Assembly: GCF_029945895.1 (NCBI RefSeq)
Contig: NZ_JAQSDL010000112.1
Coordinates: forward strand, 1 to 64,000
DNA length: 64,000 bases
Reading direction: 5' to 3'
Origin: Polaromonas sp.
Lineage (GTDB): Bacteria > Pseudomonadota > Gammaproteobacteria > Burkholderiales > Burkholderiaceae_C
Positions 37,972-47,463 of this stretch are shown here, piece by piece. The notes beneath the pieces were generated by a model. It ran no database searches and had not been told where the DNA came from. It saw only the letters and a list, made by a program, of their open reading frames with translations. The position numbers and the translations under genes are program-made. Each line of letters opens with the position of its first letter. Positions within the stretch are counted from its first letter, which is position 1.

Positions 37972-39474
37972 TTAAGCCGACTCCTCGATATCAGCACCAA
38001 GGTCAGCGGCAATCAGTTTGAATTGCTCCAATGCCGCTTGCAGATCTTCCACAATCTCTTGGGCAATAACTGCCGGTGCAGGCAGGTTGTCGCTGTCGGC
38101 GAGGGAATCATCCTTCAGCCAGAAGATGTCAAGGCTGGCCTTGTCGCGCGCTGTCAGCTCTTCGTAGGTGTACATGCGCCAGCGACCGTCCGGGTTCTCG
38201 GCCGTCCACGTTGGTTTGCGCTTGTTGCGGTTGGCGACGTTGTACAGGTCCACAAACTCGTCGAGATCTTGCCGCCTGAGCGGGCTGGTCTTCAGTGTGA
38301 AATGCTTATTGGTGCGCAGGTCATATATCCACAGCTTTTTGGTCCACGGTTTTTCGTTGGCGGATTTTTTCTCCAGAAACAGCACATTGGCCTTGACGCC
38401 TTGCGCGTAAAACAGGCCGGTTGGCAAACGCAGCAGCGTATGCACATCGCACTCATGCAGCAGCTTGCGGCGGATAGTTTCGCCGGCCCCGCCTTCAAAC
38501 AGCACGTTGTCAGGCAGCACCACTGCCGCGCGGCCATTGGTTTTAAGCAGCGTCTTGATGTGCTGCACAAAATTAAGTTGCTTGTTGCTGGTAGTGGCCC
38601 AGAAGTCGTCACGCTCGATGGTGTCCTTCTCGGTGCTGGTGCGGCCATCTTCACCCACGATGACGGTGCTGCTCTTTTTGCCGAACGGCGGGTTGGCCAG
38701 CACCACCTCATATCGTTCGCCCGGATCAGAACCCAGCGCGTCACCGACGATCACGGGCACCGACTTTTCAGACCCGATGCCATGCAACATCATGTTCATG
38801 GCGCACACCCGCGCGGTGGCCTGCACCAGTTCATAGCCGGTGAAGGCTTTTTCCTTCAGGTGCTTGAGCTGGTCGCGCGTCAGGTTCTTGTTGTGCTGGG
38901 TGATGTAGTTGTGCGCAGTGAACAGAAAGCCGCCTGTGCCACAAGCCGGGTCGCAGATGGATTCACCGGGCTGCGGGGCCATACAGTCCACCATGGCCTG
39001 AATCAGCGCGCGCGGCGTGAAGTACTGGCCGGCGCCGCTCTTGGTGTCTTGCGCGTTCTTCTCAAGCAAGCCTTCATACGCATCGCCTTTCACGTCGGCG
39101 CCCAGAATCGTCCATGTCTCGGCGTCAATCAAATCAACAATCACGCGGCGCAGCTTGGCCGGGTCCTGAAACTTGTTTTGCGCCTTGCCGAAGATCAGGC
39201 CCAGCGTGCCCTTTTGCTGACCCAGCGCCTCCAGCACGTGGCGGTAGTGGTCAAACAACTCGTCGCCATCCTTGGCCAGCAGCGACGGCCACGAATACGC
39301 GCCTGGAACAATGCTGACCTGGTTGTGCGGCGGCTGCGCGCGTTCGTCGGCCATCTTGAGGAACAGCAAATACGTGAGCTGCTCTACATAGTCGCCATAA
39401 CTCATGCCGTCGTCGCGCAACACATTGCAGTAGTTCCAGAGTTTCTGGACGAGTCCGTTGGTGGTGGTGTTCAT
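37972..39474 (-). CDS. hsdM: Type I restriction-modification system methyltransferase HsdM
   Basis: The 500-residue N6-adenine methylase has an N-terminal helical domain, the pre-motif QYFTP (150-154), AdoMet motif DPACGTGGF (175-183) and catalytic NPPF (261-264). With HsdS it methylates the recognition sequence and with HsdR forms the restriction complex. The start at 39474 (MNTTTNGLVQKLW) is the family-typical N-terminus. Unusually it is about 3.8 kb downstream of hsdS, directly after a type IV toxin-antitoxin pair (20-bp gap to the toxin gene). Confidence 0.95.
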   Translation of the reverse strand: MNTTTNGLVQKLWNYCNVLRDDGMSYGDYVEQLTYLLFLKMADERAQPPHNQVSIVPGAYSWPSLLAKDGDELFDHYRHVLEALGQQKGTLGLIFGKAQNKFQDPAKLRRVIVDLIDAETWTILGADVKGDAYEGLLEKNAQDTKSGAGQYFTPRALIQAMVDCMAPQPGESICDPACGTGGFLFTAHNYITQHNKNLTRDQLKHLKEKAFTGYELVQATARVCAMNMMLHGIGSEKSVPVIVGDALGSDPGERYEVVLANPPFGKKSSTVIVGEDGRTSTEKDTIERDDFWATTSNKQLNFVQHIKTLLKTNGRAAVVLPDNVLFEGGAGETIRRKLLHECDVHTLLRLPTGLFYAQGVKANVLFLEKKSANEKPWTKKLWIYDLRTNKHFTLKTSPLRRQDLDEFVDLYNVANRNKRKPTWTAENPDGRWRMYTYEELTARDKASLDIFWLKDDSLADSDNLPAPAVIAQEIVEDLQAALEQFKLIAADLGADIEESA

Positions 39475-39493
39475 TCGGTAGGGGTTTTCAAAA

Positions 39494-40345
39494 TCAGGTT
39501 TTTTGCAACAGCTCAGTACACAGCGCATGGATGATTCTGCGTGCGCGCTCCAGCGCCATATTTGACTGATGGGCCAGCAAGAGCGGGCCTTGCTCGTCTG
39601 TTTCAGGCTGCAGTATCGCGACGATGCGCCGGGTAGCAGGCGCGTCAATCAGTTCAAGCAAGTCACGGCCCAGCAGTCGTGCGCTCACTTCTTCATGGTC
39701 AAAATCTTCGGCTTCAAACAAATCGGCATGTTGGGCGGCCGCGTGGTCATACTTATCGCAGTCCAGGTAGTGCCGCAGGTACAGCATCAAGTCCGGTGCG
39801 TCACGCCCCGGAAACTTTTGCTTGCGGTCGTGCCAGGCCGTGATCTTGAGCAATGCCAGTGCGGGGATGCTCGCCACGTTGACCGATGCCTCATCAGGCA
39901 ACAGGACCTGGTGGCTGGCTTGCATGGCCTCGCGCATGCCAAAGCAGTCAAACACGGTGTGCTCATCAGGCGGCCAGGCCAGGGTGCGGTCCGGCCGCTC
40001 CACGCCGCCAAAGGGCACGATGTCCAGTGGGTGCTTTGATGTTGTGTGGCGCAGCTTGTGTGTGGCGTCGTTCGAAACGGCCTCAAACTCGCCGCCGTCA
40101 ATGAGGGCCTGGCGCAAAGCCTCAAACGTGCCCCAGTCGCGCACCATCACGCCAAAGTCAATGTCGTCGGTCTTGCGCCTGGTGTCTATGCCGTACACAT
40201 GCAGCAACATCACGTCACGCGCGGCGGCCCCCATCAGAAAAAACCCGGCCCCCAACGGCGCCGCCACTGCCTGCAGCGGGCGCACCACCTGTGCCAGCGG
40301 CAACAGATCAAACCTGGCGGACAAGTCGTGCAACATGGCTTTCAT
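39494..40345 (-). CDS. AbiEii-type nucleotidyltransferase toxin
   Basis: A 283-residue nucleotidyltransferase with LMGAAARDVML (38-48) and RKTDDIDFGV (57-66), giving the catalytic acidic pair of the AbiEii/AbiGii family. It overlaps the upstream AbiEi-like gene by 38 bp (29 bp if the second ATG at 40336 is used), the expected antitoxin-toxin order. AbiEii toxins modify tRNA or related targets and cause growth arrest during phage infection. It is located inside the type I restriction locus, immediately before hsdM. Confidence 0.85.
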   Translation of the reverse strand: MKAMLHDLSARFDLLPLAQVVRPLQAVAAPLGAGFFLMGAAARDVMLLHVYGIDTRRKTDDIDFGVMVRDWGTFEALRQALIDGGEFEAVSNDATHKLRHTTSKHPLDIVPFGGVERPDRTLAWPPDEHTVFDCFGMREAMQASHQVLLPDEASVNVASIPALALLKITAWHDRKQKFPGRDAPDLMLYLRHYLDCDKYDHAAAQHADLFEAEDFDHEEVSARLLGRDLLELIDAPATRRIVAILQPETDEQGPLLLAHQSNMALERARRIIHALCTELLQKT

Positions 40346-41375
40346 ACAAGCGTTTGGCCGTTTCCATGCAACGTGCATCGCCCGTGGCCAGCAGGTCGGC
40401 ATACACCAGCACCGGCGGCACGCAAGGCCCGGCCACTGCGTCTTCAGGAAAGTGCCAAAACCGGTGGCGCACCTCCACCACGGCCTTGTGGCCCACGTCC
40501 GCCTCTTTGGCAAAGCGGTAACGTGCGGCCAGTTGGCCTGGCAGCTTGTCGGCATACATCGTCAGCTCACCCGGTGTCAGGTAGTTGGTCAGCAGCGCGC
40601 CAGCGGGCTCGCCGCCCCACTGGGCACCGCTCTTGTCGAGGGGCCATTCCTGCCAGCCCTCCAGCGCAGGCACGTAGTAGCGGCCTAGCAAGGTGCGTGG
40701 CCGCAACTGGCGTGCATAGGCATCAGCCCACAGCGCCAGCAATCGCTCGCCGTCAAACAGCCGGCGCGTGCCGCGCTTGCCATCCAGGTCCGCCACAAAG
40801 CCCTGGCGCTGCAGATCGGGCATGACCCAACCCACCGTGCCGTGGGCCACGCCGGCCCGGGCGGCCAGCTCGCGGTAAGGCAAATTGACCCACTCCGGGT
40901 GGCACAGCAGCGCAAACAACACCTGCAAGCCCGTGGGCTGAAAGGCCCGCCCCACCTGCGGCGTCACGGCCCTCAGCACCGGCTTGCGGCCTGTTGCCCA
41001 CACCAACACATGGGGCTGCTGAATATAAGCATTGCCGGCGGTGTCCAAAAACTCACGCCCCTGCTTGCGCAAAGTCTCTGCCATGTCCGGGTTGATGTAG
41101 TCGGCCACCACCAGCCCAGGCAGGGCATGCGCCTCTGCTTGCCGGTCCAGCTGGTGCAGCGTCGCCCCCAGATTTGCAGGCCGTAGCAGGCGGCGTATTT
41201 CTGCTACGTACTTCTGGCCCTTGCCACCGCGGCCAATGCGCACCACGGCATCTGCGTGGGCCGCACCCCGCTTGAGCTGGGCATGTTCCAGTTGCGCGTC
41301 CAGCCCCAAGCCGAGCGCGGCTTCCAGGGCAGCGTTCAGCAGAGTGGTTTCCGGTTGTGTAGGCACTTTGTCCAT
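40308..41375 (-). CDS. AbiEi-family type IV antitoxin
   Basis: A 355-residue protein. The centre holds a winged helix (about 150-205; LPYRELAARAGVAHGTVGWVMPDLQRQGFV) and the C-terminal part has GGEPAGALLTNYLTPGELTMYADKLPGQLAARYRFAK, typical of the long AbiEi antitoxins. These repress their own promoter and block the toxin without stable protein binding. Four TGTCCA/TGGACA-type hexamers cluster around its start. First gene of the pair, then abiEii and hsdM. Confidence 0.83.
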   Translation of the reverse strand: MDKVPTQPETTLLNAALEAALGLGLDAQLEHAQLKRGAAHADAVVRIGRGGKGQKYVAEIRRLLRPANLGATLHQLDRQAEAHALPGLVVADYINPDMAETLRKQGREFLDTAGNAYIQQPHVLVWATGRKPVLRAVTPQVGRAFQPTGLQVLFALLCHPEWVNLPYRELAARAGVAHGTVGWVMPDLQRQGFVADLDGKRGTRRLFDGERLLALWADAYARQLRPRTLLGRYYVPALEGWQEWPLDKSGAQWGGEPAGALLTNYLTPGELTMYADKLPGQLAARYRFAKEADVGHKAVVEVRHRFWHFPEDAVAGPCVPPVLVYADLLATGDARCMETAKRLYESHVARLVRQV

Positions 41376-41422
41376 TTATTCGTATTGTCCACGATTAATG
41401 GACGGGCATCAATAATGGACAA
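41369..41422 (-). promoter_or_regulatory. TTGTCCA/TGGACAA repeat cluster at the abiEi promoter
   Basis: TTGTCCA occurs at 41369-41375 (over the start codon) and around 41385-41391; inverted TGGAC copies lie at about 41399-41403 and 41416-41422 (TGGACAA). The direct and inverted arrangement in 54 bp suggests an AbiEi operator, which would control abiEi-abiEii-hsdM separately from hsdRS. Confidence 0.5.
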
Positions 41423-41497
41423 CAGAAGTGATTCATTTGCGCAACTCGGCCCAAGATTGCTTAGGAACCGTTGCTTGATCGGGCCAGGTAAAGCCCG

Positions 41498-42403
41498 CTA
41501 TTCAATTAAGTCCTGCTCGCTGGAAGGAACTGCTACGTCTCTCATGACCCGGAGGTTGGCTTCAACCACCTTACTCTGGAGTTGTACTCGCAGTGGCACA
41601 CGGCGGTTGCTGTAGTGTGCTTCGCGATGGTGATTGGGGCAAAGAGCAATAACGTTGGTAACAAGGTCCATACCTTTTTCAGAAAGCGGTACTACGTGAT
41701 GTGTCTCTAAAAATATCCGGCCATCATATTTAACAAACCCCGGTACATCACAAAATTCACATTTACCACTAGCGCGACGCAACACTGCTTTTCGAACGTC
41801 CAGGCTACGCACATAAACTTTTCCGCTGGCATCTCGTTGCTCGGGAAAGCCCTCATTCGGTTGAACGTCGAACTGATCGGTAAAGCGATCGGGCTCAGCA
41901 CCCCGCGTCACCACACAATCACCTGTCGATTGGTCATACGAAGTAATAGCCCAAGGCACCAGATCCAACGCCCTTCGATAGACGTGGGATGGTTCTGAAT
42001 CTGGGTCTTCCGCACTCCGCATGTCGCCTTGGCAAACAATTACGCGAATCGGGATCTTGGTTCGAGCGGCCTGTTGAATACAAAGATCCATACGCGAGGC
42101 GCGACGCTCCCAGGTTTTTTTTCCAGCTCTTCCCATAGCCAAGCCAAAACGCCGAGGATTAATCGTCTGAAGCAAGTTACCGTTTTGCTCGGTCATCGCA
42201 TCAAACCAAAGATTCAGCACGACGACTTTTCCGGGTTCGACAAAGGCCCATTCATAACAATACTTGGGATTACTGGCAGCGCGTTCAGGCTTCGAGCCAC
42301 TCCGAAAATTTGTCCAGTCTGAAACGTTCACGCCCGCCTCTCGTACGAGGTCCATAACTCTACGATGAACTTTAGGATCGACTTCGCTTAGCAAAGGTGA
42401 CAT
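41498..42403 (-). CDS. HNH endonuclease with uncharacterised N-terminal domain
   Basis: A 301-residue protein. Residues ~205-265 form a zinc-supported HNH/McrA-type nuclease: CEFC (215-218), THH (234-236), Asn250, CPNHH (255-259) and His263. The first ~190 residues (YEWAFVEPGKVVVLNLWFDAM, TKIPIRVIVCQGD) form a separate domain that I do not recognise and that may read modified DNA or a ligand. It lies 19 bp after gene X within the restriction locus. A modification-dependent nuclease is a reasonable inference. Confidence 0.83.
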   Translation of the reverse strand: MSPLLSEVDPKVHRRVMDLVREAGVNVSDWTNFRSGSKPERAASNPKYCYEWAFVEPGKVVVLNLWFDAMTEQNGNLLQTINPRRFGLAMGRAGKKTWERRASRMDLCIQQAARTKIPIRVIVCQGDMRSAEDPDSEPSHVYRRALDLVPWAITSYDQSTGDCVVTRGAEPDRFTDQFDVQPNEGFPEQRDASGKVYVRSLDVRKAVLRRASGKCEFCDVPGFVKYDGRIFLETHHVVPLSEKGMDLVTNVIALCPNHHREAHYSNRRVPLRVQLQSKVVEANLRVMRDVAVPSSEQDLIE

Positions 42404-42422
42404 TTTTCTCCGCCTCTTCGTA

Positions 42423-43295
42423 CTAGTTAGACCAACCGAGCTCCCTCAGCACCAGCCCTACCGCAGCAATTGAATACTCGGCATCATCCTCGGTCACCGG
42501 ACGGGTGCTTTTTTCTTCTTGAACATTTGGCTTATTTCGTGCGTGCAACCGGGCCAAAGAACGGCCTGTATTGCGGATTACAGCGAAGTCCTTCTCGGGA
42601 ATCCTTCCAGATAGCTCCCAAAGATCTATCAACCGCAAGCTTGGGTCGCCCTCATTGGTGGACAGCCAAGCCCCAATACACCACTGTGCAACATCCCGCG
42701 CACGATCAACGACTGACTCCGGGCCAGCGCGATAAGCAGCTTCAATCAACTTCCCCACAGTCTCATTTACTTTGTGACGCGCATGCTCTGGAATTGCAGA
42801 TTGGTCCAATTCCGGCAAAACGCCAAGAGCCGATCTGGCGCGAAGCGTAAACAGATCCTCTCCCGTAACGATGCGTTCAACACTTATCACACGCCAAAGT
42901 GTGAACGCCTGCCTACTGCCAAGCGCAATCAGCGCCTTCTCAAATCCCTCGCCGAACATGTTTAACGCCGACCGCCCATCAAAACCATGCAGGCTCATTG
43001 GCGAGAGGGCTTGTGAAGGGAGAAAAGAATGAGGTGTAACTTTCCACGACTGTGGTTGGGTGCCAGGATTGACGTAGAAACGACCTCGTCTAACCCGCGT
43101 TACTGGATCAAACGAATCCTCGCGAAATAGCAATTTCGCTGAATATAGGTCTGCATCGGGAGGTAGTTCGTCGAAATCAGCTTCTTCCCGAATCGGTGTT
43201 GCTAGCGAGAGCACAGGGGAAGGCCACAAACCATACCCATAATGCCCTTGCCCCTCGTAGACGAGTTTGGAGCTCCCATCTATGGCAATCATCAT
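42423..43295 (-). CDS. Unknown protein X, coupled to hsdS
   Basis: This 290-residue protein is not recognised. Its start MMIAIDGSSKLVYEGQGHYGYGLWPSP at 43295 overlaps the hsdS stop by four bases (ATGA), so it should be made with the restriction complex. No signal peptide, transmembrane segment or known catalytic motif is visible. The C-terminal half is helical and charged (ARDVAQWCIGAWLS, IRNTGRSLARLHARNK), somewhat like regions of abortive-infection proteins, but this is only an impression. Base composition is more AT-rich than the flanking core genes. Confidence 0.8.
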   Translation of the reverse strand: MMIAIDGSSKLVYEGQGHYGYGLWPSPVLSLATPIREEADFDELPPDADLYSAKLLFREDSFDPVTRVRRGRFYVNPGTQPQSWKVTPHSFLPSQALSPMSLHGFDGRSALNMFGEGFEKALIALGSRQAFTLWRVISVERIVTGEDLFTLRARSALGVLPELDQSAIPEHARHKVNETVGKLIEAAYRAGPESVVDRARDVAQWCIGAWLSTNEGDPSLRLIDLWELSGRIPEKDFAVIRNTGRSLARLHARNKPNVQEEKSTRPVTEDDAEYSIAAVGLVLRELGWSN

Positions 43296-44647
43296 GATGA
43301 AAAAGCCTTTGAAAGCGTAGCCTGTCGCAGCGCCTGCGCGCGTTTGAGGTTGGTGTCGACCTCGGCCTCGACTTCGCGGACGATGGACAGGTGACGGTCG
43401 ACTTCGGCGACGATGCGGATTTGCTCTGCGAGCGGCGGCAGAAGGACTGGCAACTCGCGCAACAAACCAAGTGGGGCAAATTTTTGGGTTGTTCCTTTTA
43501 GGCGTGGATCCAACCACTTGTTCAAGGGCGACGAAAGAAGCCAGTAGCAAAAGTACGTGGAATTTAGAAATTCTTGATTTGCTTTGAACAGCCCGACATT
43601 CTTGATACTGAACCGCTTTGAGGTCTGAACTTCGCACGGGTTGCCAACGGTTCCAATCATCGCGAACAACACATCACCAACTCCAACGCCTGATCGCTTC
43701 GATATTTCGTCGTGATCGCTCTCGGAAATGAACTTGACGTTCTCAAAATCAATTCCGTACTCTTCTAAATTTTTCGAGGTGACGAGCGGTACGCCATCGG
43801 ATACATAGTCGGGCGTGTTATGTGTGCCATCTCGGACACTTGCGCAAACCTGCTCAGAACTTGCAATTACCCAACCTGCGGGAACTACGAACCCTTGCAC
43901 CTCTGTTGATTGAGTTGCTGCTTTGAATTTTCCCCTACCCACCCACTTCGTTCGCCGCTCCGCAAGAGTCCGCTCCAAAAGCTGTTCGCCGGTTTCGAAG
44001 GTGCGGCCTTCGCGGTGGGCTAGGCTGGCTTCGGTTTCTACGAGGCGGCCTTCGACGGCGGCTTTGAGGACGGAGGCTTTGTAGCGTTTGAGGTTCGCTT
44101 TGACGCGCTGGAGGTTGGCGACGGCTTCGTCGAGGCGGGAGAACTGTTTTTCGAGTTCGGCGACGACTTCACGCTGCGTCTCTAACCCTGGACAGGGCAC
44201 GGAAATATCCAACATCGTGCCTTGACTGACGGTGTTCTGACCTGCGCTGGACACCATATTCAATTCAATGTGACGTCTTACCGTCTGTGAGTTGAAGTAA
44301 TGAGCAAGATAGCGATAGTCAACAATGGCTTGGTTCGGTCGCAAGCGAATGAAGTGATCGCAGTACGCCCAAGCGCGATTGGCTCGGAATTGAATAACGC
44401 GGCCGACGAGAGCCTTGCTCCCGTTTACCCGGATGCAGACAAGGTCCTCATGCTGGAGCGCGTACTTGGCAAGCTCCTTGGCCGTGAGGCGAATTTCTCT
44501 AGGGTCTGACTGATCGATCTTGCCTGCCGTGATGTCTGCAAGCCGCAATACAGGCGTGTTCACACCGTCCGTGCCACTGCGTTTCGATAGTCCGTTTTGT
44601 GACTCCAGAATTAGGTCGCGCAATGGCACCAAAGAGTACTGACTCAT
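43292..44647 (-). CDS. hsdS: Type I restriction-modification specificity subunit HsdS
   Basis: A 451-residue protein with two target-recognition domains (about 1-165 and 235-400), each followed by a conserved helical spacer (ETQREVVAELEKQFSRLDEAVANLQRVKANLKRYKASVLKAAVEGRL; AEQIRIVAEVDRHLSIVREVEAEVDTNLKRAQALRQATLSKAF, shown here only to mark the repeats near residues 170 and 405). The two recognition domains set a bipartite target that cannot be read from sequence. ATGA overlaps join it to hsdR upstream and gene X downstream. The recognition domains are AT-richer than the helices. Confidence 0.93.
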   Translation of the reverse strand: MSQYSLVPLRDLILESQNGLSKRSGTDGVNTPVLRLADITAGKIDQSDPREIRLTAKELAKYALQHEDLVCIRVNGSKALVGRVIQFRANRAWAYCDHFIRLRPNQAIVDYRYLAHYFNSQTVRRHIELNMVSSAGQNTVSQGTMLDISVPCPGLETQREVVAELEKQFSRLDEAVANLQRVKANLKRYKASVLKAAVEGRLVETEASLAHREGRTFETGEQLLERTLAERRTKWVGRGKFKAATQSTEVQGFVVPAGWVIASSEQVCASVRDGTHNTPDYVSDGVPLVTSKNLEEYGIDFENVKFISESDHDEISKRSGVGVGDVLFAMIGTVGNPCEVQTSKRFSIKNVGLFKANQEFLNSTYFCYWLLSSPLNKWLDPRLKGTTQKFAPLGLLRELPVLLPPLAEQIRIVAEVDRHLSIVREVEAEVDTNLKRAQALRQATLSKAFSS

Positions 44648-47463
44648 GCCGCCAACTCCCGATTCAATTCCTCAATCACCTTGGGCAGTTCCGCGCCAAA
44701 AAGCTGGTGCACTTTGCCCAGGCCGCCTTCGGTGTTGAAGGGGGCGTATTCGAAGTCGTCTATTTCTATGCCAAGGTTGGCGGCGATGTGGTCGCGGATC
44801 ATTTCTAGCCAGTGAATTTGCTCGGGGGTGAAGGGAATACCTGAATTCCGGCCTTCGCCGGAATGACGTGTCTGGGTGCTTTGGCTGTGTTGGGCCAGCC
44901 AGGCCTTGAAGTTGGCCTGCACGCGCTCGGGGTAAGGCACCAGTTCATTGTCCTGTTGCATGGCAAAACGCACCAGGCTGACCAGGTCGGTCAGCAGGCG
45001 GCGCTGGCTGGCGCCTTTGACTTTGTCTTTGCGGATGGCGGCGTAGGCTTGCCATAGCGCACCTTCGTCGATCAGGTGCGGCGGAGCGTGCAAGGCGTCG
45101 GCCAGGGCTTTGACGTCATCAAACTTGAGCGGCGCGCGCGTCGGCCGGTTGTACAAAATTTGTAGAGCGGTGATTTCGTCTTTGTGCTGCTGGACGAAAG
45201 CCTCAAAACTTTGCACCAGTTCTTTGGCCCGGTCCGACCCTTCGGTGAAGGTGGCCGAGATCAGGGTGTCTTTGGTGACAATGTCTATGACCTGGTCAGC
45301 CTTTTGGCGCAGCTTGAGGATGAGGTTGCGCAGGTCCGGGTTGCTGAAGGGTTTTGCTGCTTCGCGCAGTCTGCTTTCGGCCTCGGCGGGCGACATGTCT
45401 TGTGTCGCGTCTATGTTGAGTGCCTGCACAATACCGCGCGCCAGATCTTGCAGGCTTTTGCCGCCGCTGGCGTCGGCAATCTTGCCTTTGTCGGCATCGC
45501 TCAGGTCCCGGTCCAGCCGGGCCAGCCTGGCGGCCACGCTGGAAAGCACCTCGTCTTCGACATTGCCCAGGCTCACGGCCTGCAGCAGTTTGTCAAACGG
45601 CACGCCCTTTTTCTGGTCCATGGGCCGGCTGTCGGTTTTGTCGCGTTCGCACACACCCACAGCATCGACGATGACGAAGTGGTCTTTGATGACGTGCTCG
45701 CCGGGGTTGACCTGCTGCAGGTCGGTCGGGTTGCAGATGCGCACACCCCGGCCCTTCATCTGTTCAAAAAAGCTGCGGCTTTTGACGCTGCGCATGAAGA
45801 CCACAATTTCCACCGGCTTGATGTCGGTGCCGGTGGCGATCATGTCTACCGTGACGGCAATGCGTGGGTAGTAGGCCGTGCGGAAGTCTTTGATCAGTTG
45901 CTCGGGGCTGGTGCCGGTGGTTTTGTAAGTGATCTTTTGTGCAAACTCGTTGCCCCGGCCAAACTCTTCGCGCAGGATTTCAACAATCTTCTCGGCGTGG
46001 TTGTCGTCTTTGGCGAAGACCAGGGTTTTGGGCAACTCTTCGCGCTGGGGAAACAGGTCGGTCTGCCAGTTGTCGCGCAGGGTGCGCACCACAGTGCGTA
46101 TCTGGTCGGGCGTTTGCACGGCGCGGTCAAGCTCTGAGGGGTCGTATTCAAAATCTTCGTCAAGCTGCCAGGCGGTTTTGCGGCGAGTGGCTTTGTCCAG
46201 CGTTTCGAGCCAGTAGCCTTTTTCAACCCTGGAGCCTTTTTCAGTCACATCGGTCTTGATGCGATACACGTCGTAATTGACGTTGACGCCATCAGCCACG
46301 GCCTGCGTGTGGCCGTACTCCATGACCAGATTCTGGTTGAAGAAGCCAAAGGTTTGCTTGTTGGGTGTGGCCGTCAGGCCGATCAAATAAGCGTCGTAAT
46401 ACTCCAGCACCTGGCGCCACAGGTTATAGATGCTGCGGTGCGCTTCGTCGGTGACGACGATGTCAAAGGTCTCGATGGGAATGGCCGGGTTGTAACCAAG
46501 CGGCGTCGGGTCCTTGAACAGGCTTTCTGCGCCCTCGGTGCTTTCTTCGTCGGCTTCTTCGGGCAGATCACGGCCCTTGAGCATGCTGAACATGCGCTGG
46601 ATGGTGCAGATGACCACACGGGCGCTTTTGTCGAGCTGGTTGTTCTGCAGGTGCTGAACGATGTATTCCTCACCAAACTTGTAGCTGTTGTATGGCGAAG
46701 CATAGGCGTCAAACTCCTTTTTCGTCTGACGGGCCAGGTTGCCACGGTCCACCAGAAACAGCACGCGCCGCGCACCAGCAAACTTGATGAGGCGGTAGAT
46801 AAAGCTGATGCTGGTAAAGGTTTTGCCGCTGCCCGTGGCCATCTGGATCAGGGCCTTGGGTTTGTTGGCGGCCAGGCTTTTTTCAAGATTCTGGATTGCG
46901 GTGATCTGCGCGGGCCACAGGTTGTAGCTGGCACCGCCTACGCCCCATTCGGTGATGAGTTGCGGCATGTGGGCCATGCGAGCCAGAAAGGTACCCGCCT
47001 CCTCGTTGACGGCGGCAGGTATGCCGGACGCATCTGGCACAGGCGCATAGGCCAGCCACTGCACCAGCATGTCCGGGCGGAAGAAGGCGAATACGCCACG
47101 GGCACGCGGGCGCGGGTCCAGCCCATTGGTGAAGTGGGTTTCAATGCCCGTTGATTCCCAGAGGAAGGGCAAAGGTCGTTGCCATGCCGGCAAGGTGCTG
47201 GGCAAGCCTTGCGCGTAGCGGCCGGACTGAACTTCAACGCCTGAAAGGGTGGCGCCTTCCTTTTTGGCTTCAATGACGCCACAGGCCTTGCCATTGACAT
47301 ACAGAAGGTAGTCGGCAAAACCAAAACCGGGATTGAGGGGGAACTCGCGAATGGCTACGCCGACAGAAGCATGGATGTTGGCATCGGCGACATTGCAGAC
47401 GTGCCAGCCCGCTTGCTGTAGCAACGCGTCGATTCCGACTCTGGCTTTCGCTTCTGGTGTCAT
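44644..47463 (-). CDS. hsdR: Type I restriction endonuclease subunit HsdR
   Basis: A 939-residue motor nuclease. The N-terminal PD-(D/E)xK site is Asp51 with EAKK (65-68). The helicase core has Walker A ATGSGKTF, Walker B DEAHRS and a later GTDIKPVEIVVFMRSVKSRSFFEQMKGRG motif VI region. It translocates DNA and cuts at a distance when the site is unmethylated. It overlaps hsdS by four bases. An in-frame palindromic repeat near residue 867 inserts RHSGEGRNSGI before the C-terminal domain. The start at 47463 follows a strong GGGGAGGGGG site. Confidence 0.95.
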   Translation of the reverse strand: MTPEAKARVGIDALLQQAGWHVCNVADANIHASVGVAIREFPLNPGFGFADYLLYVNGKACGVIEAKKEGATLSGVEVQSGRYAQGLPSTLPAWQRPLPFLWESTGIETHFTNGLDPRPRARGVFAFFRPDMLVQWLAYAPVPDASGIPAAVNEEAGTFLARMAHMPQLITEWGVGGASYNLWPAQITAIQNLEKSLAANKPKALIQMATGSGKTFTSISFIYRLIKFAGARRVLFLVDRGNLARQTKKEFDAYASPYNSYKFGEEYIVQHLQNNQLDKSARVVICTIQRMFSMLKGRDLPEEADEESTEGAESLFKDPTPLGYNPAIPIETFDIVVTDEAHRSIYNLWRQVLEYYDAYLIGLTATPNKQTFGFFNQNLVMEYGHTQAVADGVNVNYDVYRIKTDVTEKGSRVEKGYWLETLDKATRRKTAWQLDEDFEYDPSELDRAVQTPDQIRTVVRTLRDNWQTDLFPQREELPKTLVFAKDDNHAEKIVEILREEFGRGNEFAQKITYKTTGTSPEQLIKDFRTAYYPRIAVTVDMIATGTDIKPVEIVVFMRSVKSRSFFEQMKGRGVRICNPTDLQQVNPGEHVIKDHFVIVDAVGVCERDKTDSRPMDQKKGVPFDKLLQAVSLGNVEDEVLSSVAARLARLDRDLSDADKGKIADASGGKSLQDLARGIVQALNIDATQDMSPAEAESRLREAAKPFSNPDLRNLILKLRQKADQVIDIVTKDTLISATFTEGSDRAKELVQSFEAFVQQHKDEITALQILYNRPTRAPLKFDDVKALADALHAPPHLIDEGALWQAYAAIRKDKVKGASQRRLLTDLVSLVRFAMQQDNELVPYPERVQANFKAWLAQHSQSTQTRHSGEGRNSGIPFTPEQIHWLEMIRDHIAANLGIEIDDFEYAPFNTEGGLGKVHQLFGAELPKVIEELNRELAA
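44835..44868. repeat. Palindromic repeat (second family) inside hsdR
   Basis: ATTCCGGC (44845-44852) and GCCGGAAT (44857-44864) with a CTTC loop form a dispersed ATTCCGG...CCGGAAT element common in proteobacterial spacers. Here it is in frame and encodes HSGEGRNSGI. Confidence 0.75.

Follow-up and report, generated by a model that had tools for sequence, protein, structure and literature searches.

A Polaromonas type I restriction-modification locus with a probable cassette-exchange site between hsdS and hsdM

Type I restriction-modification (R-M) loci are known to carry embedded defense genes, among them PrrC, RloF, TgvAB, and DarTG2 (PMC3710099, PMC12707154, PMC11411939, PMC12255303). We present here an analysis of such a locus in Polaromonas sp. 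(NCBI RefSeq assembly GCF_029945895.1, contig NZ_JAQSDL010000112.1). The window is the whole stretch analyzed, positions 1 to 64,000 of that contig (G000:C112 in our survey, where numbers with L denote loci). On its minus strand the locus reads hsdR-hsdS-X-HNH-abiEi-abiEii-hsdM, with all seven frames open. It probably belongs to an R-S-slot-M subfamily of type I R-M loci, in which the interval between hsdS and hsdM is a cassette-exchange site for defense-type genes. At the level of sequence, this reading rests on the layout, its recurrence, the turnover of the slot, a boundary at the hsdM start codon, and operator-like repeats.

The slot between hsdS and hsdM and its content

The search for HsdM relatives gave 9 of 101 genomes in the relatives set (E ≤ 1e-100) and 39 of 399 in the order (E ≤ 1e-120); at E ≤ 1e-150 it gave 52 of 399 in the family and 15 of 398 in the phylum. 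These sets overlap, and 101 genomes in total carry a relative. One contig of a Comamonadaceae metagenome-assembled genome and 8 of the 57 plasmid records with a match were also taken. The hsd genes were located with hidden Markov models trained on the R, S, and M sequences of these loci. Both hsdS and hsdM were found in 82 loci, which include some with broken or interrupted hsd genes (e.g., L035, L039, L054, L056, and L083); the others end at a contig end or have no recognized hsdS. In all 82, hsdS lies upstream of hsdM on the same strand. The gap is at least 593 bp (0.6 to 7.2 kb) in 79 of them and nearly nil in L050, L060, and L120. Because the interval is occupied in 79 of the 82 loci, R-S-slot-M is the normal layout of this subfamily. 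The original prediction, which saw an insert splitting a normal hsdM-hsdS neighborhood, fails on this point, since separation is the rule. Its proposed genome search for the gene order gave a divided answer: the full seven-gene order occurs in the window only, in this sample, while abiEi-abiEii-hsdM recurs. Ten other loci have an AbiEi-family gene plus one further gene before hsdM, and that second gene falls in the AbiEii cluster in nine. A slot confined to the genus was ruled out by occupied slots on plasmids of Alphaproteobacteria, Gammaproteobacteria, Actinomycetota, and Bacillota; as exceptions, the slot of a Vibrio plasmid is almost empty and a Methylomonas record lists no hsdS or hsdR. 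As a separate observation, hsdM, hsdS, or hsdR seems broken or interrupted in L040 and L055 as well as in the loci named above, and some of these still hold cargo.

Slot open reading frames (ORFs) were called by a home-made codon score with longest-frame filling, which makes the calls approximate, and were compared all against all; modules are single-linkage clusters named from single representatives. The commonest kind of slot gene is an SLFN_AlbA_2/HATPase_c_4-type cluster, a candidate defense family present in 28 loci (for example, L048:11234-13192, L052:6449-8059, and L092:11423-13411, the last two overlapping hsdM by ATGA). AbiEii-like nucleotidyltransferases occur in 21 loci, with a partner of AbiEi_2 type (cluster in 11 loci) or helix-turn-helix (HTH) type (11 loci). 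Six loci have a MarR/nucleotidyltransferase gene paired with one for a protein of 149 amino acids (aa). We liken this pair to MNT/HEPN modules, a resemblance that is our own reading because the 149-aa second gene has no Pfam match. Other modules comprise PIN genes with MazE-like or other partners, HipA_2 with DUF3037, Fic, YhcG nucleases, DUF4357, and AbiEi_3/AbiEii, and the annotated names in plasmid slots are DUF262, GIY-YIG, HIRAN, AAA, and hypothetical proteins. A gene for a 282- to 317-aa protein, paired with a PIN-type gene, recurs soon after hsdS (L024:12010-13331, L056, L078, and L085). The one member scanned matches no known family, and the pair may be a new toxin-antitoxin-like module. 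In L013:1782-6650, seemingly two different AbiE-type pairs stand in tandem before hsdM; the second gene of the outer pair clusters with AbiEii of L042, and the first was judged by eye.

The content of the slots was compared with that of the 3 kb outside hsdR and hsdM in the same 68 loci. Among the 25 commonest of 71 Pfam families in 150 slot ORFs were SLFN_AlbA_2 (15), PIN (6), PIN_3 (4), AbiEi_2 (5), AbiEii (5), Fic (4), HipA_2 (3), and YhcG_C (3). The 150 flank ORFs gave mostly housekeeping families, with NTP_transf_2 (2) the only toxin-antitoxin-like entry among the 25 commonest of 148. The slot sample was drawn from at most 162 plus-strand ORFs of at least 70 aa, with 16 minus-strand ORFs dropped, and the flank sample from at most 404 ORFs on both strands, many of them probably spurious. 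PF08843 (AbiEii) was matched 85 times in 74 genomes (292 Mb), 82 times above the cut-off. Six of the 85 lie in 179 kb of slots, versus 0.05 expected on a uniform spread; that expectation ignores defense islands in general, so the flank comparison is the fairer control.

The last module of the slot is often a toxin-antitoxin-type pair. A toxin-antitoxin-like gene, of several kinds, stands directly before hsdM in 24 of the 43 close loci (HsdM profile score of at least 900). Over all loci there are 33 such cases, with a gap of at most 28 nucleotides (nt) in 28 and an exact 4-nt ATGA overlap in 11. On a tree of 99 HsdM sequences, the last-module label needs 53 changes, the minimum possible being 10. 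The AbiE label (8 rows) changes 7 times, with at least 5 changes forced by well-supported branches; the pair with a short nucleotidyltransferase (NTase) changes 12 times in 12 rows and the MNT pair 6 times in 6. For these labels, L013 was entered as a short-NTase pair though it is AbiE, L102 (AbiEi in the slot) was entered as other, and L056, L083, and some further loci with low or cut HsdM were omitted.

As judged by pairwise DNA comparison, slots receive new content with no change of chromosomal site and with retention of hsdR, hsdM, and much of hsdS. L068 and L070 have flanks, hsdR, the 3′ part of hsdS, and hsdM in common at 91 to 93% and no similarity in the slot, which holds HipA_2-DUF3037 plus an AbrB-like/PIN pair in one and abiE in the other. 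L027 and L028 share hsdR, hsdM, and 4.9 kb downstream at 85 to 94%, little of hsdS, and 72 bp of the slot; their cassettes are a short-NTase pair and abiE. In L075 and L076 the upstream flank, hsdR, a first 1.8-kb block of slot genes, and hsdM are common and the last module differs (AlbA_2 type versus MNT pair). The probable route of such exchange is homologous recombination within the conserved hsd genes.

Close loci with different cassettes were also aligned at the hsdM start in two groups set by hsdM start length (412 and 33 pairs from 32 and 9 loci); 2 of the 43 close loci, L043 and L045, could not be anchored there. Over the 60 bases preceding the start, identity is 0.25 to 0.31 in the larger group and 0.19 to 0.35 in the smaller; over the first six bases after it, the values are 0.91 and 1.0, respectively. 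The larger group then shows a drop to 0.56 for six bases, followed by values of 0.80 to 0.98. By this comparison the replaced part ends at the hsdM start codon. Since similarity starts there, hsdM has no conserved leader of its own, and the adjoining cassette supplies it. No identity step was seen at the hsdS end in an ungapped comparison, which gave little identity on both sides.

Several observations weigh against the reading of the slot as a cassette-exchange site of this subfamily. A second type I family, sought in 74 genomes (15 loci including one in the window genome, 13 with both genes), has 0.8 to 2.1 kb between M and S in 7 of the 13 loci and an M/S overlap in 6. YhcG nucleases are the cargo in three of these loci, and RhuM-Fic, an AAA protein, and a single antitoxin-like HTH gene were also identified; in the two gaps without identified cargo, the ORF of L133 had no match and L134 offered no ORF for scanning. 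The subfamily is thus not alone in carrying cargo at the M/S joint; a higher cargo frequency and a bias toward toxin-antitoxin genes are what set the R-S-slot-M loci apart from this small control. Only 5 of 49 lower-scoring loci with hsdS on the contig, some with hsdM cut or broken, have a toxin-antitoxin-like gene last. Non-toxin genes (AlbA_2 type, YhcG, and others) also abut hsdM, some by the same ATGA overlap, so a toxin-antitoxin pair is not needed at that place. Shuffled labels on the HsdM tree average 61.2 changes, and 0 of 200 shuffles were as low as the observed value, so there is some weak clustering, yet turnover is rapid. The same-site pairs also differ outside the slot, including parts of hsdS; in L070, hsdR and hsdS are separated by an additional 1.6 kb, and the 5′ part of hsdS is different. 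Finally, Pfam matched neither the short NTase tested nor the 149-aa partner and gave only a weak match for the HTH partner.

The locus in the window

The features of the locus are as follows.

44644..47463, minus strand: hsdR, EcoEI-type restriction/translocase subunit, 939 aa (Pfam EcoEI_R_C 3e-43, ResIII 1e-35)
43292..44647, minus strand: hsdS, specificity subunit, 451 aa (Pfam Methylase_S)
42423..43295, minus strand: X, 290 aa, an N-terminal mostly beta part and a C-terminal predicted HEPN-like fold (aa 166-290)
41498..42403, minus strand: HNH nuclease, 301 aa (Pfam HNH 1.6e-5), with the N-terminal ~190 aa outside that domain
41368..41422, minus strand: putative abiE operator/promoter region, four TTGTCCA-type half-sites, the last overlapping the abiEi start
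40308..41375, minus strand: abiEi, AbiEi_2-type antitoxin/autorepressor, 355 aa (Pfam AbiEi_2 3.7e-28)
39494..40336, minus strand: abiEii, nucleotidyltransferase toxin family, 280 aa (Pfam AbiEii 1e-12)
37972..39474, minus strand: hsdM, N6-adenine methylase subunit, 500 aa (Pfam N6_Mtase and HsdM_N; PADLOC MTase_I 1e-199)

ORF and Pfam analysis agrees with the co-directional gene order originally predicted, with no family for X, and with the ATGA overlaps at hsdR/hsdS and hsdS/X and the 19-nt spacing from X to HNH. The sole real break in the series is the 122 nt between HNH and abiEi; abiEi and abiEii overlap by 29 nt. The predicted closeness of hsdM to abiEii also holds, the spacing to the hsdM ATG (39474) being 19 nt and not the 20 bp given. 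A TTG-started hsdM frame reaching 39648 is probably not the real start, because hsdM conservation begins at the ATG. The view of a composite locus of defense-type genes, with a cassette carried by hsdRS-hsdM and hsdM placed behind a toxin-antitoxin promoter with AbiE-type inverted repeats, is likewise supported.

Pfam and PADLOC identify helicase-nuclease HsdR, N6-methylase HsdM, and HsdS genes together, as in type I R-M, and Walker A, DEAH, and an N-terminal E-A-K are all readable in HsdR. The hsdR 3′ part contains, in frame, a 24-nt palindrome-like element (44845-44868, minus strand; protein ...RHSGEGRNSGI...) that resembles a small interspersed repeat; the pattern tried occurs once in the genome. 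The second type I locus of this genome (L019:5651-11377, G000:C104) has the order R-M-S and an M/S ATGA overlap.

The antitoxin gene of the AbiEi family followed by the AbiEii nucleotidyltransferase gene matches the type IV AbiE arrangement, and the inverted repeats expected at an AbiE promoter are present in the sequence. Half-sites upstream of abiEi lie at -46, -29 (one mismatch), -16, and +1, a spacing of 17-13-17, and nowhere else in the window do three exact half-sites fall within 112 bp. A repeat search there gave a 9-nt perfect pair and a 16-nt pair at 81%. L012, L016, and L071 have half-sites at the same four positions, and L028 has the same spacing with TGTTCA replacing TGTCCA. The remaining six abiEi loci have two to five half-sites at other or partly equal positions, some of their start codons being doubtful. 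AbiEi of Streptococcus agalactiae represses its own promoter (PMC3985639). By analogy, AbiE toxicity and autorepression, as well as restriction, would operate here, and AbiEi would also repress hsdM.

X matches no family in Pfam, PADLOC, or NCBIfam, and no ATPase family was detected in it that would suggest a PrrC-type ABC-ATPase fusion. Foldseek alone, with the first X model, gave no match below 0.001. The canonical HEPN motif is a conserved Rx4-6H. In an alignment of nine X sequences, H251, R253, and K255 are invariant and R245 is not conserved, and X thus lacks that motif. An RNase role for X is speculative. X also follows hsdS in L010 and L035, and a single scan of genome contigs with X gave one relative. 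Further relatives (L123:7001-7864, L126:7001-7894, L121, and L122) have BREX genes nearby, are next to DUF262 and close to ZorA, or are located on viral contigs; for relatives on plasmids, the contexts of four of six were inspected. From these neighborhoods, X seems to be a mobile defense-island gene in its own right. The HNH protein has an HNH nuclease domain by Pfam and PADLOC. A PADLOC mREase_IV match (3e-17) is confined to residues 193-267, and a role as a modification-dependent nuclease is speculative. The HNH gene clustered with no other slot ORF.

In the mechanism that we propose, restriction would be the first defense line in this strain, and X, as a HEPN-type effector candidate, and the HNH nuclease would act as additional effectors coexpressed with hsdRS. 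AbiE would be expressed from a promoter of its own that AbiEi represses and would stabilize the locus or abort infection. Transcription of hsdM would be that of the last gene in the abiE operon, so that methylase output would follow AbiEi occupancy.

Alternative explanations

The most serious competitor to a cassette-exchange site is a neutral hot spot, in which the S-M joint tolerates insertions between recombining hsd genes, the cassettes are independent, and read-through into hsdM is incidental. The great diversity and quick turnover of slot content fit this explanation, as does the M-S cargo of the control family. The bias of slots, relative to flanking genes, toward defense and toxin-antitoxin families argues against it, and so does the finding that toxin-antitoxin-type pairs, where present, are mostly the last module, co-directional with hsdM and abutting it. 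We regard neutrality as possible, although we do not expect it.

Selection may instead have acted on AbiE and hsdM as a unit, a tentative explanation that we hold to be rather unlikely. AbiEi would control both, and shut-off or removal of the locus by a phage or plasmid would free AbiEii. AbiE would be a guard of the R-M system, comparable to PrrC except for its dedicated antitoxin. Unrelated toxin-antitoxin-type pairs do converge directly before hsdM at the short distances and overlaps given above, hsdM in close loci has no conserved leader, and the operator geometry of abiE is conserved. However, AlbA_2-type, YhcG, and other genes hold the same position, some with the same ATGA overlap. Non-toxin genes being equally close to hsdM, tight spacing is a general property of the slot, and from sequence, methylase-toxin coupling is speculative.

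A broader form of this idea, which we consider doubtful, is that the slot has evolved as a docking site for a replaceable toxin-antitoxin guard. The docked pair would provide promoter, leader, and often translational coupling; one antitoxin would govern methylase and toxin, and R-M inactivation would lead to growth arrest. If so, the locus would exemplify a general class of R-M systems that have complete toxin-antitoxin pairs of various unrelated types as guards.

It is improbable that the arrangement is chiefly a switch for expressing the methylase first. An antitoxin-repressed promoter would be fully on in a naive cell, early hsdM would protect the new host, and the toxin would be secondary. 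The position of hsdM downstream of the abiE promoter region, with hsdR-hsdS-X-HNH before that region, would suit such a switch. HsdM, however, is described as needing HsdS to methylate (PMC11411939), hsdS here sits with hsdR, and many slots have no toxin-antitoxin pair. A one-off insertion that split an ordinary hsdMS pair in this strain, for which low GC around hsdS-X-HNH (~0.52, versus ~0.65 in the flanks) and the uniqueness of the full order could speak, is hardly credible and is ruled out as an account of the layout by the same split in the related loci.

Relation to known systems

In open-licence literature, searched mainly at title and abstract level, we found no account of toxin-antitoxin pairs or exchangeable cassettes between hsdS and hsdM. 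As far as searched, the new part is that the S-M slot is exchangeable and has repeatedly been filled with complete toxin-antitoxin pairs that abut hsdM. Dozens of related loci have unrelated toxin-antitoxin-type pairs at one place, against the methylase start codon, and sister loci whose main difference is the cassette (L068/L070 and L027/L028) occur naturally, so the question of methylase-toxin coupling is directly testable. The slot is also a source of uncharacterized defense candidates, such as X and the SLFN_AlbA_2-type proteins.

The cassette-exchange site proposed here has partial counterparts. The abiE genes resemble the published type IV system in their adjacent AbiEi and AbiEii genes and inverted-repeat promoter and differ from it in the presence of hsdM 19 nt downstream in the same direction (PMC3985639). 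PrrC, of the EcoprrI type Ic locus, is a HEPN nuclease of an hsd locus that forms a second defense line, and X is a HEPN-fold candidate right after hsdS; PrrC, however, has an ABC-ATPase part and is kept inactive by the Hsd complex, whereas X has no detectable ATPase family and no canonical HEPN motif (PMC3710099, PMC12707154). TgvAB of Vibrio cholerae VPI-2 likewise consists of two defense genes embedded in a five-gene hsd operon, and its protection is independent of restriction activity; unlike the genes in the window, it is a GmrSD-type two-protein effector, with no antitoxin described (PMC11411939). The RRDM island of enteropathogenic Escherichia coli (EPEC) is similar in having a complete toxin-antitoxin pair, DarTG2, in a phage-protective type I R-M locus, at a site that its authors call a potential recombination hot spot (PMC12255303). 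There the pair lies between hsdS and hsdR under a single repressor, RptR (PMC12255303), whereas here pairs of several types occupy the S-M interval, and hsdM is preceded by a promoter region that belongs to the antitoxin itself. The immunity-suicide coupling hypothesis predicts that R-M is coupled with dormancy or suicide genes (PMC3506569), and in contrast to the form described there, the slots reported here carry genes of antitoxin families.
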